Shown: in pieces, positions 12,308 to 63,067 of the stretch | Numbering within the stretch: the first letter of the stretch is position 1 | Layout: every line of letters begins with the position of its first letter | Assembly: GCF_008831285.2 (NCBI RefSeq) | Contig: NC_045149.1 | Coordinates: forward strand, 17,747,035 to 17,811,034 | Origin: Nymphaea colorata | Taxonomy: Eukaryota > Streptophyta > Magnoliopsida > Nymphaeales > Nymphaeaceae | Direction: 5' to 3' | DNA length: 64,000 nt | The notes under the pieces: generated by a model | Database searches by the model: none | Told to the model about the DNA's origin: nothing | What the model saw: only the letters and a program-made list of their open reading frames with translations | Made by a program: the position numbers and the translations under genes

Positions 12308-12394
12308 ATGGTCCAAGCGTCGCTCCGTCAGGGCCGTTCTGACACCACCATTTATGTGAATTGCCTCTCTCTCCTCCGACCCACCTGCGGATGA
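12308..12394 (+). promoter_or_regulatory. Upstream ORF ending on the F-box start codon (ATGA overlap)
   Basis: ATG at 12308 opens 28 codons and stops at TGA 12392-12394, overlapping the F-box start ATG (12391-12393) by ATGA. A start-stop mini-uORF (ATGTGA, 12354-12359) lies inside it in another frame. If the transcript includes this leader, ribosomes must leak past or reinitiate to make the F-box protein. The arrangement is read directly; a regulatory role is inferred. Confidence 0.5.
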
Positions 12395-13578
12395 AGATGG
12401 GTTTCCGCCTAGAAGAAGAGCACGATTCCAAATCACATTCTTCCGATTGGAGTTGTCTGGACAACGATCTGACGGAGCTCATCCTCTCCTACCTTCCTCT
12501 CCGTTCCATCGTCCGAGCTCGCCTGGTCTGCAAGCAATGGAACTCCCTCATCGCTCAGGAGTCATTTGCTTCTCGCGTTTCTAGGAAGAAGAAGCCGTGG
12601 TTCTTCCTCTTTGGGCAGAACAACGTGTTCTTGAAGAACAACCAGGCGTTCGGGTTCGACCCCGAATCGAAGGAGTGGATTCGCCTCTCCAGCTCGCTGT
12701 TTCCTCGCCCCCTACGCCAGGAGGACTCCTTCATTGGCTCTAGCGGGTTTTTCTTCCTCACCACGGGCTCTACGCTCTCCCAGTTTCGCTACACCCCTCT
12801 TCTTTCCGATTCATGGCAGTTCACTCAGCCGCTCCGCTTCTCGAGGTCGAATCCGTTGGTGGGTGTCTTCGAAATTGGGGGTTCCCTCCGGTTTATCGTC
12901 GCCGGAGGGGCCCGGTTCATCGGGGGTTTGGTGGATATTGAGGAGAGGCTGGCGGTCGAGATCTACGATTGCCAATCAGACTCGTGGGTGCTTTGCCCAC
13001 CGCTCCCTGCCCATTTCCGACCGGGGAATTCTTCTCAGTGCCTGTGTTCTACTTTGCTCAATGGGAAATTCTTCGTTTTCGGAATCCATTCGGGGTTCGT
13101 TTCCGCTTTCGATCTCAATCAACACCTCTGGAGTGCTGTTCGGGTACTGAAGCCGCCTGGGGTGATTTTCTCCTTCTTGGTGTCTTGCCAGAACCAGCTT
13201 ATCCTTGCCGGTCTGTGCAACAATTCCGATGGGCCTTCGTTTAATCTGTGGCGGGTCGATGAGGGATCGATGGTGTTTACTGACCTTGCTGTCATGCCGA
13301 GGGATCTTTTGAGTTGCTTGATTGAGAGCGATGAGGATGAGAAATTTGCTAGCTTGAAGTGTGTGGGATTAGGGAATCTCATCTATGTCTTCAATGAGGA
13401 GCACCACCGAGTTTATCCGGCCTGCGCCTGCGAGATATCTCCGGACTTGGGATGCACGTGGTGGCGTGTGCCAGAGTTGCCCCCTCCGGTGAACAAATTC
13501 CACAAGGTGATCGGCTTTTGCTCGAAAGTGCCCTTAAATGGTATCTTGGGCCATGGCCCAAAGAGCTGGTTGTTGTGA
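12391..13578 (+). CDS. F-box/kelch-type protein, single exon
   Basis: A probable substrate-receptor subunit of an SCF ubiquitin ligase. The frame from ATG 12391 gives 395 residues. The F-box lies at about residues 22-56, with the core LTELILSYLPLRSIVRARLV followed by CKQWNSLI, the usual SKP1-binding helices. The remainder (about 60-380) is rich in beta-type segments with G/W spacing such as GFDPESKEWIRL, VEIYDCQSDSWVLCPPLP and SAFDLNQHLWSAV, consistent with a galactose-oxidase/kelch propeller. The tail WWRVPELPPPVNKFHKVIGF matches the plant F-box/kelch style. The frame is open to 12361 but lacks an ATG there. M3 at 12397 has the better start context (A at -3, G at +4), so either start is possible. 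The substrate is unknown. Confidence 0.85.
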   Translation: MKMGFRLEEEHDSKSHSSDWSCLDNDLTELILSYLPLRSIVRARLVCKQWNSLIAQESFASRVSRKKKPWFFLFGQNNVFLKNNQAFGFDPESKEWIRLSSSLFPRPLRQEDSFIGSSGFFFLTTGSTLSQFRYTPLLSDSWQFTQPLRFSRSNPLVGVFEIGGSLRFIVAGGARFIGGLVDIEERLAVEIYDCQSDSWVLCPPLPAHFRPGNSSQCLCSTLLNGKFFVFGIHSGFVSAFDLNQHLWSAVRVLKPPGVIFSFLVSCQNQLILAGLCNNSDGPSFNLWRVDEGSMVFTDLAVMPRDLLSCLIESDEDEKFASLKCVGLGNLIYVFNEEHHRVYPACACEISPDLGCTWWRVPELPPPVNKFHKVIGFCSKVPLNGILGHGPKSWLL

Positions 13579-31056: not shown

Positions 31057-31221
31057 AACCGTAGTATAACAGTAACTACTTGCCATTAGTCATGTCAGCT
31101 TCTTCGTCCCTTTGGAAACCTCTGCTTTCTGTGTTTGGATGTGATGCCCCTCTTTTGAGTATCTTCCAAACACCAGAGGTTTAGGCAGAAAAGCACCTAC
31201 CACCCACTTCACATCTACGCC

Positions 31222-31926
31222 ATGGAGAATGGAGAGGCCAAACCAGTGAAGAAAACCAACCATAGGTGCTCAAGAAAAGGGTGTATGAAGGGCAAAGGAG
31301 GGCCTGAAAATGCACTTTGCCACTACAGGGGTGTGAGGCAGAGGACTTGGGGCAAGTGGGTAGCTGAGATACGTGAGCCCAACAGAGGATCACGCCTGTG
31401 GCTCGGCACCTTTGACACCTCCCACCAGGCTGCCTTGGCCTATGATGCCGCAGCCCGCAAGCTCTACGGTGATTGTGCGGTGCTGAACCTTCCTGAGTCC
31501 TGTGTTATCACCACAGAGCTTCCTTACCAACAGGAGATTGCTCACAACTCCCTGTCTTCATCACCTTCTTTGCGCCGAAGCGTTAAGCCTCGGAATTCAG
31601 GCAATTCACAAGGCCGCGGAGGCTGCAGTGGCTCAGAAACAACCACCACCGCTGCCAGCAACACGACCAACGGGACCAGCGCCACTTCACAGGCTAGTTT
31701 TCCTGAGTTCGCCACGGAAGCGTTTAGAGATGACGAAGGAGAAGGTGAGCTATGGAGCAGCAACGACGCGGTTCGGTTTTCTTTGGACGAGATGACGGCC
31801 GGCTGGTTGTCGTGCCCTGAGAGCTTGCCATCGATGGAGGACCAGCAGCTTCCAACGTCCTTTGAGTGGGGAAATGGGGAGGAGCTGATGGGCTTTGAAT
31901 CCACGCAGTTGGGCTGGTGTACATAG
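31222..31926 (+). CDS. DREB2-type AP2/ERF transcription factor
   Basis: Nuclear AP2/ERF regulator of the DREB A-2 type, whose members bind DRE/CRT (A/GCCGAC) sites and act in drought, heat or salt responses. Single exon, 234 residues. Residues 1-34 hold a basic stretch ([14 protein letters not shown]) and the A-2 signature [13 protein letters not shown] just before the domain. The AP2 domain spans about 35-92: [20 protein letters not shown] with Val at domain position 14, the [16 protein letters not shown] helix and [11 protein letters not shown]. The C-terminal half is Ser/Thr/Gly-rich and then acidic ([27 protein letters not shown]), as expected for an activation region. The start is the first ATG and precedes the basic segment. 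Which DREB2 member it is cannot be decided here. Confidence 0.92.
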
Positions 31927-44103: not shown

Positions 44104-45770
<1,667 letters not shown>

Positions 45771-48963: not shown

Positions 48964-49569
48964 AATGCCCAAGGGTTCTGTAAGTGTCGAATCCTAAACC
49001 AGGCCAAGGTGCCTTGTGGTCCAACTCACTCGCGTGCACTTGGCCCTACGCACATAGGTGCTAGTGGCCGACCCTACAGGTCACTTCTTGGGCTTGTGTT
49101 CATCCTCGACCGCCCCCAATGCTGCGACCTGTTGCTCTCGGCGCTCCTTGCCGAGGCTAACCTCACAAGGCAACGAGGGCATAAGCCTGTCGGGTGGTAA
49201 TCGGCGTGCTCAACTGTTACTCACGCCGCTGGTCAGCTCTGCTCTAGCGCTCTCCACCAGGCCTTCGGCCATCCTCGATGGTGCCAAAACTAGGCACGTA
49301 TCAATGTTTTATTGTTCCACGAAAATGCCCAAATCTTTGGGTTAGATTAAAAAATATTCACCAAATATTCCAAGTACCAAACGACTCTTAAGTTAGATCA
49401 TCAGTCATAGAATTAAAGGAAGTCATTATAGATGGCTAACATTTCATTCTGACATTTTAAAACATTCCATATTCATTTATGACTTACCAAACTACTTTTA
49501 CATGACACACTTAACACATTTATTGTCACAATTGATACTTTAGGAAGGAGATATACGTCTCTTTCGACG

Positions 49570-49648
<79 letters not shown>

Positions 49649-50335
49649 ACAGAAAATACATATTGGACAAGAGAAAACATTTGTAATGCCTAATGGGTTA
49701 TGTAAGTGTCGAATCCTGAACCATGCCAAGGTGCCTTGTGGTGCAACTCACTCGCGTGCACTTGGCCCTACGCACATAGGTGCTAGTGTCTTGGGCTTGT
49801 GTTCAACCTCGACCGCGCGCAATGCTGCGACCTGCTGCTCTCGGTGCTCCCTGCCGAGACTAACCTCACAAGGCAACGAGAGCATAAGCCTGTCGGGTGG
49901 TAATCGGCGTGCTCAACTGTTACTCACGCCGTTGGTCGGCTCCGCTCTAGCACTCTCCGCCAGGCCTTCGACCATCCTCGATGGTGCCAAAACTAGACAC
50001 GTATCAATGTTTTATTGTTCCACGAAAATGCCCAAATCTTTGGGTTAGATTAAAAAATATTCACCAAATATTCCAACTACCAAACGACTCTTAAGTTAGA
50101 TGATTAGTCATAGAATTAAAAGAAGTCACTGTAGTCAGTAGATGGCTAACATTTCATTTCTGACAGTTTAAAACATTCCATATTCATTTGTGACTTACCA
50201 AATTACTTGTAGATGACACACTTAACACATTTATTGTCACAATTGATACTTTAGGAAGGAGATATACGTCTCTTTCGACGTTATATATATATATATTTTA
50301 CAGAAAATACATATTGGAGAAGAGAAAACATATGC
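48964..50335. repeat. Two tandem ~0.7 kb units downstream of CHS2
   Basis: Unit 1 (48964-49683) and unit 2 (49684-50335) have the same order. Part A is GC-rich (AAGTGTCGAATCCT...GTCGGGTGGTAATCGGCGTG). Part B is AT-rich (CCAAATCTTTGGGTTAGATT...GGAGATATACGTCTCTTTCG), followed by a TA run and TTTTACAGAAAATACATATT. Part B recurs as a third copy next to CHS2 and again, diverged, at 59311-59480. Open frames in part A (48865-49200 and 49686-50048) are not kept between units at their ends, so I do not call a gene. Confidence 0.8.
49571..49646. repeat. (TA)n microsatellite, unit 1
   Basis: 76 bp of TA in part B of unit 1. The homologous sites have about 15 bp (50283-50297) and 132 bp (50675-50806). 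Confidence 0.95.
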
Positions 50336-50399
50336 TTAAGGTCTTACAGGTAAGCTGTGTAGGACGACGGTGTCAACGGTGAGGCCAGGTCCGAACCCA
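50336..50399 (-). pseudogene. CHS2-type 3'-terminal relic
   Basis: On the minus strand these 64 bp read [20 protein letters not shown] and stop, the same C-terminus as CHS2, with only a few nucleotide changes. Nothing upstream of it is CHS. It sits exactly between repeat copies 2 and 3, in the position CHS2 itself occupies next to copy 3. It is therefore the stump of a deleted or recombined CHS2-type gene. Confidence 0.85.
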
Positions 50400-50844
<445 letters not shown>

Positions 50845-52283
50845 TTAAGGTCTTACAGGCAAGCTGTGTAGGACGACAGTGTCAACAGTGAGGCCAGGTC
50901 CGAACCCAAGGAGCACACCCCACTCGAGCCCTTCTCCGGTTGTGGCCGCGCCATCCTCCATCGATCTCTTCCTCACCTCGTCCATGATAAAGAGCACGGT
51001 TGCACTGGACATGTTGCCGTACTCGCTTAGCACGCGCCTAGACGCCCGTAGCTTCTCAGCTTTCAACTTGAGCCTCTCCTCCACTCGGTTCAAGACGGCA
51101 GGCCCGCCAGGGTGCATGATCCAGAATATGGAGTTCCAGTCCGAGACCCCGAGTCGGTCAAAGGCCTCTGCCAAAACCTTCTCGATGTTAGTCGAGATGA
51201 GGCTCGGCACACTCTGTTGGAGATGGAAAGTCAAGCCCGCCGCGCCTAGGTGCCCTCCCACAGCCCCTTCGCTGTCGGGCAAAATGGTCTGACCAGTCCA
51301 AGCGAGCTCGAAAATCGGCTTCTCCATGTTAGGGACTGGGTCCGCGCCAACAATGACTGCAGCTGCTCCATCGGCAAAAAGGGCTAAACCAACCAGGCCG
51401 TCTGGGTACGTCCCGCAGGGCCCGCGGAACGTAACTGCAACCATCTCGCAGCATACGACCAACACCCTTGCCCCCCTGTTGTTCTCGGCGAAGTCCTTGG
51501 CTATGCGTAAGACCGCGCTGCCGGCGAAACAGCCCTGGTGAGGTAGCATGACGCGCTTGACTGCCGGGTTCAGGCCCAAGAGGTTGGTCAGTTGGTAGTC
51601 CGCACCAGGCAGCTCCCCGCCGCTGCTGGTACAAAAGATGAGGTGCGTGATGTTTGACCTGGGCCGCGCCCACTCGGCGATGGCCTTGACCGCGGCCTCC
51701 TGCGCCAAGCGCGGCACCTCTTTAACCAGCATGGCTTGGCGCGCGTCTAGGGAGGGAGCCGCCTGGTCACAGATGCTGGGGTTTGCCTTCAACATCTCTT
51801 CTGTCAATTGCATGTGCCTCTTCTTTATCCCAGAGTTACCACCTGCATCCATACTCACAAGCCCCATATTAAGCATATCGAATAAAAAACCCAATCACAT
51901 ATCAACATATTTGCTACCAATCATTTATCAAAGATCAAAGCCATCATATATATGGAATGAAAATAAAGAAAGATTAGGTCAGGTATATATATGATATATA
52001 GTGGGCTATGTATGTACAAGAAGAATGTTAAGACATGAATGCTATACGATGGCTGCGATTGTCTAAAAAACAATGGTTATGGTGAGAGAAGAATGTAAAG
52101 TTTACATATTTTGGTGAACTTCTCCTTAAGGCCGGTCAGGTGCTCGGAGTTGGTGACCTTGAAGTAGAAGTCGGGGTACGTGCTCTGGTCGATGACATTG
52201 GGCGGGTTGGCCGTTCCAATGGCCAACACGGCTGCCGGACTCTCAGCCCTCTGCATCTTCCATATCTGTTCAAGACTCACCAT
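50845..52283 (-). CDS. Divergent CHS-like type III polyketide synthase (CHS2)
   Basis: Exons 52106-52283 and 50845-51842 give 391 residues, collinear with the other copies. Cys164 (HQGCFAGS), His303 (WIMHPGGP), Asn336 (SEYGNMSS), Phe215, Phe265, Thr197, Gly256 and Ser338 are present, so a working condensing enzyme is expected. Many conserved positions differ from CHS1: Asp96Ala, Val98Leu, Thr132Ser, Val135Gly, Met137Leu, Tyr160Pro, Thr194Val, Gly216Ala, Ile254Val and Asp255Gly. Several of these lie in the loops that decide between chalcone (Claisen) and stilbene (aldol) cyclisation. The product cannot be named from sequence. Head-to-head with CHS3, 2.05 kb between start codons. The leader contains a CT repeat directly before the ATG. 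The frame is intact. Confidence 0.9.
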
Positions 52284-52329: not shown

Positions 52330-52371
52330 TGGATGGATGGATGGTGTTCTTTCTCCTGGCTTTCTTTTATA
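52284..52371 (-). promoter_or_regulatory. CHS2 leader microsatellite and TATA box
   Basis: Read on the minus strand: TATAAAAG at 52371-52364, then CCAT repeats (about 52326-52343) and a (CT)n tract (52324-52287) ending three bases before the start codon. The orphan exon at 59808 has TA repeats in the same place. Confidence 0.65.
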
Positions 52372-54330: not shown

Positions 54331-55902
54331 ATGGTGAGCGTTGAGGAGATCCGGAGGGCACAGAGGGCCGAGGGTCCTGCCACCGTGCTCGCCATCGGAA
54401 CCGCCACTCCGACCAATGCAGTCGACCAGAGCACGTACCCTGACTACTACTTCAGGATCACCAACAGCGCGCACAAGACCGAACTGAAGGAGAAGTTCAA
54501 GAGAATCTGTAAGCCCCCATCTTCCCCGCTTTTCTAGCCGAGTATTAAACCGAGTTCAGTAGCCAACTTGGTCTACTTCTCTCTCTGGTTGCCATCTGCG
54601 TACGCCTTAGGGAACGGAACTTAGCTTCTCGGCCTCTTGTATGTATGTTAATGTGCCTACAACTGACTGAAAGGACTCGAGTTGGTCGCTTTTCCTCTTT
54701 TAGAGATGTTGATTCAATATGTGAGATGCATCTGTAACATATAAATGGGTTAATATCTGTTTCCCCGGAATATGCTAAAGATCTTGGAATATAAACCGTC
54801 AAGCTTTCAAGTCATACACAAATGTACAAACTTGTTCATTATACATAATGAAGATGTACATATTTTTCAATTATATGTCCTGTGACGTGCAAGTTGTTGT
54901 GCAGGTGAGAAATCAATGATAAAGAAGAGGTACATGCACTTGACGGAAGAGATAATGAAGGAAAACCCAAACATCTGCACCTACATGGCCCCATCACTGG
55001 ACGCACGGCAAGACATGGTGGTGGTGGAGGTGCCCCGGCTGGGGAAGGAGGCTGCGGCCAAGGCCATCAAGGAATGGGGGCAGCCCAAGTCCAAGATCAC
55101 CCACCTCATCTTCTGCACCACCAGCGGGGTGGACATGCCCGGTGCCGACTACCAAGTGACCAAGCTCCTGGGCCTGCGCCCCTCTGTCAAGCGGGTCATG
55201 ATGTACCAGCTGGGCTGCTTCGCCGGCGGCACGGTCCTCCGCATGGCCAAGGACCTGGCGGAGAACAACAGGGGTGCTAGGGTGCTGGTCATATGCTCCG
55301 AGATCGCCGCTGTCATGTTCCACGGGCCGAGTGACGCCCACCACGACAACCTCATCGGTCAGGCGCTCTTTGGCGACGGAGCGGCTGCAATCATCGTTGG
55401 AGCAGACCCAGTCCTTGACATGGAGAGGCCCATTTTCGAGCTGGTCTGGACGGGGCAGACCATCCTGCCGGACAGCCATGGGGCTATAGAAGGGCACCTA
55501 CGCGAAGTGGGCTCGACCTTCCACCTCCTCAAGGCCGTGCCCGGGCTCATATCGAAGAACATCGAGAAGAGCCTGGTCGAGGCGTTCGACCCGCTCGGCA
55601 TCTCGGACTGGAACTCCTTGTTCTGGATCGCCCACCCCGGCGGTTCTGCCATCCTTGACCAGGTCGTGGAGAAGCTGAAGCTCAAGACCGAGAAGATGCG
55701 TGCTGCCAGGCACGTGTTGAGTGAGTACGGGAACATGTCCAGCGCCTGCGTGCTGTTCGTAATGGACGAGATGAGGAGGAAGTCGAAGGAGGAAGGGGCG
55801 GCCACCACCGGGGAAGGGCTCGAGTGGGGTGTTCTCTTTGGGTTCGGACCAGGGCTCACGGTCGAGACCGTCGTGCTGCACAGCGTGCCGATCAGCGCCT
55901 GA
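54331..55902 (+). CDS. CHS: Chalcone synthase-like, copy 3 (CHS3)
   Basis: Exons 54331-54508 and 54905-55902, 391 residues, intron at the Cys60 codon like its paralogues. Very close to CHS1/CHS5 overall. Cys164, His303, Asn336, Thr132, Met137, Gly211, Phe215, Gly256, Phe265 and Ser338 are kept. It differs inside and around the reaction cavity: Gln162Leu beside the catalytic Cys, Thr194Ala, Thr197Met, Arg199His, Asp255Glu and Leu263Ser. Thr197 lines the cyclisation pocket, where larger side chains are known to change products in related synthases. It may still make naringenin chalcone, or may have shifted or reduced activity. The start is the ATG shared with CHS1; the frame is open further upstream (54235) but that part is homologous to the other copies' 5' UTR. 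Confidence 0.93.
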
Positions 55903-56008: not shown

Positions 56009-56397
56009 GAATAAGGAATAAAATGAATGACGTTTTCTTATGGGGAACGCGTGTTGTCCTTGGCATTTTATTGTGTTTCCAATTTGTTTTCAATCTTCTC
56101 TAATTATTATTATTTATTTTTCCCTCTGGTTTTTGCTTATAACTATCAAAATGACTATTCGCTGGTCATTCGAAAAATTTCGAATTTCTGAGATTCAGCA
56201 ATAATTTTTCCAATAAATATATTGGGCAGAAGAAAAATAATAACATGCGTGGTAGTCTTTCATCGTGTCTAGAATTTGTATAATCCTTTACTCTCTGTCG
56301 TCATTTGCTGCTTATGTGGAGTATTTGGTTTATGTTTGAGTGTTCACCTGCGACCAAGCACCCTCCAATCCGGTCCCAAGCGTATGTTGAAATTGTA

Positions 56398-56492
56398 AGC
56401 ACTGGACATGTTGCCGGTCTCGCCCGGCACATGCCTAGACGCTGTCGGCCTTCAACTTCAGCCTCTCCTCCATTTGGTTCAAAATTGCAGCC
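56398..56492 (-). pseudogene. CHS exon 2 relic downstream of CHS3
   Basis: Matches the plus-strand image of CHS2 at 51002-51110 (GCACTGGACATGTTGCCG..., GCCTAGACGC..., AGCCTCTCCTCCA). It corresponds to residues of about 312-340 around SEYGNMSS, on the minus strand. An 8 bp net deletion breaks the frame and no other part of the gene surrounds it. Confidence 0.8.
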
Positions 56493-59480: not shown

Positions 59481-59630
59481 TTTTGGGGACTTTTCTTTTT
59501 TACTATCATCGGACAAACTCAATGCCGTCGTTCGTTTATTCGTCTGATCCGTACCGCATTGGTAGAAATGGTATATATATATATATATGATATATAGTGG
59601 GTTATGGTGAGAGAACAATGTAAAATTTAC

Positions 59631-59808
59631 ATATTTTCGTGAACTTCTCCTTGGGCACGGTCATGTGCTCTGAGTTGGTGACCTTGAAGTAGCAGTGAGG
59701 ATACGTGCTCTGCTCGATGACATTGGGAGGGTTGGCCGTTCCAATGGCCACCCCGCCTGCCGGACTCTCAGCCCTCTGCATCTTCCATGTCTGCTCAAGA
59801 CTCACCAT
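59631..59808 (-). pseudogene. Orphan exon 1 of a CHS2-type gene
   Basis: 178 bp with ATG, an open frame and an intact GT donor, matching CHS2 exon 1 ([18 protein letters not shown] versus [18 protein letters not shown]). About 50 bp of intron sequence is still recognisable. No exon 2 lies further along the minus strand; instead part-B repeat follows within 150-300 bp. So exon 2 has been deleted. Changes such as AAVLAIG to GGVAIG suggest relaxed constraint. The CT leader repeat of CHS2 is replaced by TA repeats here. Confidence 0.88.

Positions 59809-61421: not shown

Positions 61422-63067
<1,646 letters not shown>

Follow-up and report, generated by a model that had tools for sequence, protein, structure and literature searches.

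The window, i.e. the whole 64,000-nucleotide stretch of Nymphaea colorata DNA analysed here (C12:17747035-17811034, placed within a survey of the plant's own genome, 407.8 Mb in 783 contigs), contains the genes CHS1 (44212..45770, plus strand), CHS2 (50845..52283, minus strand), CHS3 (54331..55902, plus strand) and CHS4 (61509..63067, plus strand). CHS1 is of the ordinary chalcone synthase (CHS) type and serves as the comparison gene; CHS3, the divergently transcribed neighbour of CHS2, is 93% identical to it, and CHS4 is 99.7% identical. CHS1 and CHS4 are identical along ~1.4 kb, intron included (44262-45660 in CHS1), with flanks at ~38-83% identity, a pattern suggestive of recent gene conversion. 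For N. colorata PMC10283260 describes a fused 'triple CHS' gene model, which would match the three CHS genes on the plus strand of the window. At 12343-13575 (plus strand), ~31 kb from CHS1, there is a reading frame whose matches are to F-box and kelch, and another one, at 31159-31923 (plus strand), carries one AP2 domain. CHS is turned over by certain F-box proteins of the kelch type.

CHS2 is encoded on the minus strand, at the coordinates given in the earlier note. Exon 1 (52106..52283, minus strand) comprises residues 1-59 and the first base of the Cys60 codon, and ends at the donor T/GTAAAC. The intron (51843..52105, minus strand, 263 bp, GT...AG) splits the Cys60 codon, i.e. it is at the same place as the introns modelled in CHS1, CHS3 and CHS4, and exon 2 (50845..51842, minus strand) contributes the remaining Cys60 bases, residues 61-391 and the stop. 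The spliced frame is 391 amino acids long and unbroken, with a single terminal stop, and the catalytic triad is whole (C164, H303, N336), which bears out the earlier description of a full-length protein with intact triad and no frame breaks. Exon 2 matches the Pfam domains Chal_sti_synt_N and Chal_sti_synt_C (257 and 221 bits, respectively), and with both domains, the Cys-His-Asn triad and a length of ~390 amino acids CHS2 belongs to the plant type III polyketide synthases (PKSs). Its residue numbering is that of Medicago CHS2 with zero offset.

A TATA box (TATAAA, 52366..52371, minus strand) lies 88 bp upstream of the CHS2 ATG. The nearest G-box is at -1448, as compared to -231/-286 in CHS1, -220 in CHS4 and -605 in CHS3, and regulation may differ since a proximal G-box is missing in CHS2. 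A candidate poly-A signal (AATAAA, 50623..50628, minus strand) starts 217 bases past the stop. Further downstream there is a partial tandem copy of the 3' end of the gene (50282..50399, minus strand; last 20 codons and flank, 96% identical); in the region 49305-50749 the 3' end with an (AT)n tract is partly tandem-repeated, and the flank is present three times.

Integrity, selection and descent of CHS2

The array to which CHS2 belongs covers 64 kb of C12 and consists of CHS1, CHS2, CHS3, a CHS2 remnant, CHS4, L009, L010, L011b, L011a and L012. The remnant is exon 1 of a decayed CHS2 paralogue (59629..59808, minus strand, 90% identical DNA), and a scrap of exon 2 (56383..56490, minus strand) is most likely of the same paralogue. 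The loci L009, L010, L011 and L012 are situated just outside the window (G000:C12:17814928-17854830). They form a CHS-derived lineage with D255R, G256A and Ala197 (position 197 aligns beside an extra residue); the exon frames of L009, L010 and L011a, with putative splice sites, are open, and L011b (stops) and L012 (deletions) are wrecks. A sister gene of CHS2, an intact relative, lies on C5 (L015; exon 2 at C5:11276128 and on, minus strand) and will be called the C5 gene. Part of CHS2, 1,288 bp corresponding to 50855-52142 of the window, has a copy on C1 (G000:C1:43721062 and on; L017 2564-3851) at 98.9% identity; this copy carries the intron, lacks the start and stop codons, and is a recent gene-fragment transposition. 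The survey also gave a wreck on C5, weak matches on C14 and C6 (L018, L019) and on C8, which were set aside, and two genes, labelled LAP5/6-like by us, with 43% identity to CHS2. One scan of viral contigs confirmed no relatives of exon 2, and among the titles listed by a literature search none dealt with the CHS2 gene.

The earlier note had asked for a type III PKS tree, and the trees place CHS2 among the CHS genes of its own plant. With 22 other rows CHS2 joins CHS1, CHS3 and CHS4 (support 96/90), and it does so as well in a 21-row tree built without the switch columns and without the rows of DCS and BBS (82/89), two enzymes whose panel sequences are provisional and are called presumed below. 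In a 29-row tree, from which the C1 fragment, L011b, L012, L014, the C14 and C6 matches (L018, L019) and the C8 match were omitted, CHS2 and the C5 gene are sisters (98/92), adjoin L009/L010/L011a (93/93) and are inside a clade of the plant's own CHS-type rows (95/96). The AU test rejects orthology with the stilbene synthases (STSs) of pine, grape or peanut or with STS 9uud (p between 4.6e-6 and 0.010), and likewise a grouping with presumed BBS, with CURS1 and presumed DCS, or with OLS (all p values, STSs included, are between 4.6e-6 and 0.047). The curcuminoid clade had been suggested by I254V, D255G and F371L, and for the grouping with CURS1 and presumed DCS the AU p value is 0.027.

The C5 gene carries 12 of the 45 derived exon 2 residues of CHS2 (D96A, V98L, M137L, S191C, I254V, L268Q, F371L and others). 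Since D96A, V98L and M137L are common to the two genes, they are most simply older than CHS2; they may alternatively be convergent, as pine STS has the same three replacements. The C5 gene is without V135G, Y160P, T194V, G216A and D255G, its Y160 and Q161 are unchanged and, unlike CHS2, it has Ile132, Gly133, Leu197, Glu255 and Ile265. The two proteins differ at 33 of the 45 positions, therefore two different activities are possible. CHS3, a young copy, has changes of its own with respect to CHS1 (T194A, T197M, Q162L, R199H, D255E, L263S, D270A and P307S) at an overall omega of 0.091, which affect 4 of 19 positions that we take to line the cavity (p = 0.028), and it is possibly a second enzyme shifting its product, at the chain-length position 197.

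CHS2 is intact, and its own branch shows strong purifying selection. The pairwise comparison with CHS1 gave dN 0.157, dS 1.73 and omega 0.091 (LRT against omega 1 = 220.5). A branch test was carried out on 330 codons of seven exon 2 sequences (CHS2, the C5 gene, L009, L010, L011a, CHS1 and CHS3; CHS4, the two LAP5/6-like genes, the C1 fragment, L011b, L012, L014, L018, L019 and the C8 match were omitted) with the topology of the 29-row tree. Omega is 0.138 on the CHS2 branch and 0.118 on the rest, i.e. the two do not differ (p = 0.55), and for the CHS2 branch a value of 1 is rejected (LRT 35.5, p = 2.6e-9). A dN/dS near 1 across orthologues had been named beforehand as a sign against a functional change in CHS2; run on the paralogues, the test gave the above 0.138. 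CHS2 departs at only 3 of the 85 positions that are invariant in 21 other rows, and the changes (G118A, I309V and E380D) are all conservative; 11 non-CHS rows, each left out in the same way, show 1-13 departures.

Changes at the aldol-switch positions

Over its whole length CHS2 shares 72.6% identity with CHS1, 63-70% with eight CHSs from the Protein Data Bank (68.6% with Medicago CHS2, 1bi5) and 61-64% with four STSs. The eight substitutions with respect to CHS1 that were pointed out in the earlier note (D96A, V98L, V135G, M137L, Y160P, T194V, G216A and D255G) are all found in the alignment. The changes it omitted, namely V100K, T132S, D136E, M159L, Q161H, G168S, I254V, L268Q, K269Q, D270S, G273S, A302M and K62N, matter at least as much. 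F215, F265, G256, E192, S338 and G374-P375-G376 are retained. Pro160, situated 4 residues before the catalytic Cys, is absent from all 22 sequences compared with CHS2 in the first panel and could harm folding. A structure prediction with CHS2 exon 2 and three paralogues resulted in an unusable model (mean pLDDT 34.6, pTM 0.32).

The natural reference for these changes is 18xCHS (PDB 1u0v), the engineered CHS-to-STS switch, that differs from alfalfa CHS (1bi5) at positions 96, 98, 99, 100, 131, 133, 134, 135 and 137, and further at 157, 158, 159, 160, 162, 268, 269, 270 and 273. Four replacements of CHS2 had previously been taken for the engineered ones. D96A, V98L and M137L are indeed present in 1u0v, but D255G is not, as Asp255 is unchanged there in the sequence alignment; Gly255 is natural in pine STS (1u0u), as well as in peanut STS, CURS1 and OLS, and a literature search joining Asp255/D255 with STS and CHS found no matching paper. 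The same applies to the list of switch positions proposed at that time: the loops stand, 255 does not belong there, and 268-270 and 273, all four of which are changed in CHS2, had been left out. Pine STS and 18xCHS have other residues than CHS2 at 100, 135, 159, 160, 268-270 and 273, and are changed at 99, 131, 133, 134, 158 and 162 where CHS2 is not, whereas CHS2 loses Thr132. In the loop 131-137 CHS2 shows none of the pine replacements T131S, S133T, G134T and V135P, and it is Thr132 itself that is replaced.

The loops of the engineered switch are clearly rebuilt in CHS2. Ten CHSs are unanimous at 240 positions and CHS2 departs from them at 48; the changes fall on 10 of the 16 testable 18xCHS positions, as compared to 38 of the 224 others (p = 1.4e-4). 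The ten CHSs, each compared to the rest, show 0 changes at 16 such positions, or 1 at 17 in one case. If the 18-site pattern is slid along the protein, the 11 differences from CHS1 observed in CHS2 are reached in 2 of 376 placements, with the unshifted pattern counted, and a codon model of CHS1 and CHS2 gives omega 0.308 at the 18 positions and 0.084 elsewhere (p = 5.1e-4). The 19 positions assumed to line the cavity are not enriched in CHS2 (6/19, p = 0.15; codon model p = 0.45).

The enrichment is not specific to STSs. At the 16 positions pine STS is changed at all, which follows by construction, Vitis STS at 8, peanut STS at 7 and 9uud at 6. BAS is changed at 9 (p = 5.6e-4), presumed BBS and presumed DCS at 9 each, OLS at 7 with a weaker excess (p = 0.025), and 2-PS is borderline with 5 (p = 0.058); no excess was detected in SPS1, CURS1 and CHS3. 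The slide control singles out BAS (3/376) and leaves STS 9uud unremarkable (74/376). The enrichment was therefore rejected as a proof of STS activity, given that BAS, OLS and the presumed BBS and DCS show the same; changes at the switch positions are a better sign of an enzyme other than chalcone synthase than of a stilbene synthase.

Areas 1-4, the second-shell segments that set cyclisation, are rebuilt in CHS2, and part of this is common to the C5 gene. The motifs TTSGVDM (Area 2) and LKDVPG (Area 4), well conserved in CHSs according to a passage of PMC5870536, are both lost (TSSGGEL and QQSVPS, respectively). Area 1, QAMLVK, resembles QAMLAM of pine STS, and Area 3, VMLPHQ, is one residue off VMLYHQ of Vitis STS and STS 9uud. 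The review PMC6274091 lists positions 132, 133, 194, 197, 256, 265 and 338 as constant among CHSs and, as a rule, substituted outside them. CHS2 is changed at two of these (T132S and T194V) and keeps five; the four solved STSs change 0-1 and the other PKSs of the panel 2-4 of them. Regarding the STS network Glu192-Thr132-water-Ser338, CHS2 keeps E192 and S338, and Ser132 retains a hydroxyl; the network is not universal among STSs, as the STSs of Polygonum and Rheum and the BIS of apple are listed with Ile or Ala at 132 in PMC5870536.

Areas 1, 3 and 4 were also scored with a small profile, our own build after the idea of pPAP outlined in PMC5870536 and not pPAP itself. CHS2 obtained 12.1 for R-4-C, the Claisen or chalcone synthase class, 33.6 for R-4-A, the aldol class, and 28.0 for R-2-X, the diketide class; the C5 gene obtained 15.4, 43.5 and 24.5, respectively. 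Nine CHSs, each left out, score 60.4-69.6 as R-4-C. In the leave-out trial 12 of 17 rows were assigned correctly, including 9/9 CHSs, while 3 of 5 R-4-A and 2 of 3 R-2-X rows were wrong. Among the training rows, one for R-4-A and one for R-2-X are provisional sequences, and the R-4-A call is weak. By the share of identical derived residues CHS2 falls between STSs and other PKSs, the value for STSs (0.139) being scarcely above that for the others (0.120); true STSs favour other STSs 1.4-2.3-fold, but this measure is blunt as SPS1 and 2-PS do so ~1.6-fold too. A universal consensus sequence of the aldol switch is denied in a passage of PMC7217186, consequently the product of CHS2 cannot be read off. 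In that source the CHS-like replacement G249D (CHS 255) in a tetraketide synthase lowers olivetol 8-fold, and Thr194 borders the coumaroyl pocket as described in a section of PMC6274091; these two facts suggest a less polar starter site in CHS2 and a role for Gly255. As far as the sequence can tell, it is well supported that CHS2 would not be a chalcone synthase, while we only lean to the aldol type.

Possible products of CHS2

We think that CHS2 is probably (about 0.62) a working, CHS-derived type III PKS of its own plant's lineage that no longer makes chiefly naringenin chalcone. It would load a ring-type acyl-CoA on Cys164 and extend it with malonyl-CoA as CHS does. T194V, T132S, I254V, G216A and A302M are expected to lower the polarity of the starter and cyclisation pocket, which could favour a starter without the 4-hydroxyl, e.g. 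cinnamoyl- or dihydrocinnamoyl-CoA. The neighbourhood of Ser132, Glu192 and Ser338 may be shifted by the repacking of segments 96-100, 131-137, 157-162 and 268-273, and following that shift the chain would leave Cys164 before Claisen closure. The freed chain might then give an aldol product of the stilbene, bibenzyl or resorcinol type, for which we see slightly less than even odds, or, with a lower chance, a lactone or short product. The earlier note had proposed that CHS2 independently evolved another cyclisation or a pyrone product, and the core of this proposal survives: CHS2 is intact, selected and of its own CHS lineage, and its aldol-switch loops are changed, which together make the independent evolution of another product likely. 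What does not survive is the argument from D255G and the specificity for STSs.

It is instructive to weigh this reading against others, two of which, a plain stilbene synthase and an enzyme with a short product, are sharper sub-cases of it, so that their likelihoods overlap with its own. A stilbene synthase would take p-coumaroyl- or cinnamoyl-CoA and release resveratrol or pinosylvin by aldol closure. STSs derived from CHS several times, as stated in a passage of PMC8133574, and CHS2 has residues identical to pine STS (96A, 98L, 137L and 255G), to peanut STS 1z1e (137L, 161H, 216A, 255G and 270S) and to 9uud (98L, 161H and 268Q); M159L and Q161H are found in both Vitis STS 3tsy and 9uud. E192 and S338 are retained, the area profile is highest for R-4-A, and even the loss of Thr132 is compatible with such an activity in view of the Polygonum and Rheum enzymes mentioned above. 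However, 3tsy, 1z1e and 9uud keep Thr132 and Thr194, unlike CHS2, and each groups apart; CHS2 changes 2 of the 7 product-controlling positions where the four solved STSs change 0-1, the pine replacements in the loop 131-137 are all absent, and CHS2 is apart from all four STSs in the AU test, although this shows a separate origin only. We consider a plain stilbene synthase unlikely. A short or derailed product, i.e. a styrylpyrone or triketide lactone, or a diketide of the kind made by benzalacetone, diketide-CoA and curcumin synthases, is a doubtful though still tenable possibility. CHS2 shares 9 of 70 derived residues with CURS1 (3ov2) and 9 of 48 with presumed DCS, as compared to 7/40 with pine STS, 6/32 with peanut STS, 5/28 with 9uud and 4/30 with Vitis STS, an excess of CURS1 over the STSs in number and not in proportion; the residues common with CURS1 and presumed DCS are G106A, I254V, D255G, C341T and F371L among others. 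BAS, changed at 9 of the 16 switch positions, has K100 and H161 as CHS2 does, and the sister C5 gene has Ile132 and Leu197. On the other hand SPS1, BAS, CURS1 and presumed DCS change Thr197 (the last two also Thr132 and Ser338), while CHS2 keeps Thr197 together with Phe215, Gly256, Phe265 and Ser338, and the clade with CURS1 and presumed DCS is rejected as described above.

The remaining two readings leave CHS2 with its old function or with none. That it is still a chalcone synthase, with a shifted regulation or starter preference and nearly neutral loop changes, seems quite improbable to us. CHS2 resembles R-4-C enzymes such as 1bi5 and CHS1 in length, fold family, intron place (CHS1) and triad, shares Phe215, Phe265, Gly256 and Ser338 with them and is overall nearest to CHSs; the positions that we take to line the cavity are not accelerated, and the missing proximal G-box would fit a change of regulation. 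It differs from them in the rebuilt Areas 1-4 and in T132S, T194V, G216A, I254V and D255G, and against a retained function stand the ten real CHSs, which keep their switch positions with hardly an exception, the loss of the Area 2 and Area 4 motifs and the alteration of Thr132 and Thr194. A young pseudogene, or a gene drifting towards one, could be imagined because the array holds wrecks (the scraps of the CHS2 paralogue, the stops of L011b and the deletions of L012), a piece of CHS2 was copied to C1, and Pro160 is odd. Yet the frame is unbroken and omega = 1 is rejected on the branch; in a neutral simulation with point changes only (300 copies each) a divergence of 0.1 substitutions per site left 5% of the copies stop-free, and one of 0.2 left none. 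Exon 1 changes, polarised with CHS1, CHS3 and CHS4, amount to 6 nonsynonymous and 3 synonymous ones in the remnant and to 1 and 3 in CHS2 (5 unresolved), although these are small numbers. Decay is thus very unlikely as an explanation.

A broader and more speculative idea, rather unlikely in our opinion, is that water lilies independently evolved a whole family of aldol-type PKSs (CHS2, the C5 gene and perhaps L009, L010 and L011a), which would release their chain without Thr132 (position 132 is Ser in CHS2 and Ile in the C5 gene), take a starter other than coumaroyl-CoA and make stilbenoids, bibenzyls or resorcinols.

CHS1, CHS3, the C5 gene, CHS2 and L009/L010/L011a are a natural series within one genome, in which a single CHS lineage has had the same loops rebuilt; it is therefore possible to test in which order the loop changes came and whether each was needed. 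CHS was recruited in such a manner many times, and water lilies are among the first lineages to have split off within the flowering plants. If the product of CHS2 is not chalcone, this would be a further independent recruitment of CHS, here in an ANA-grade angiosperm.
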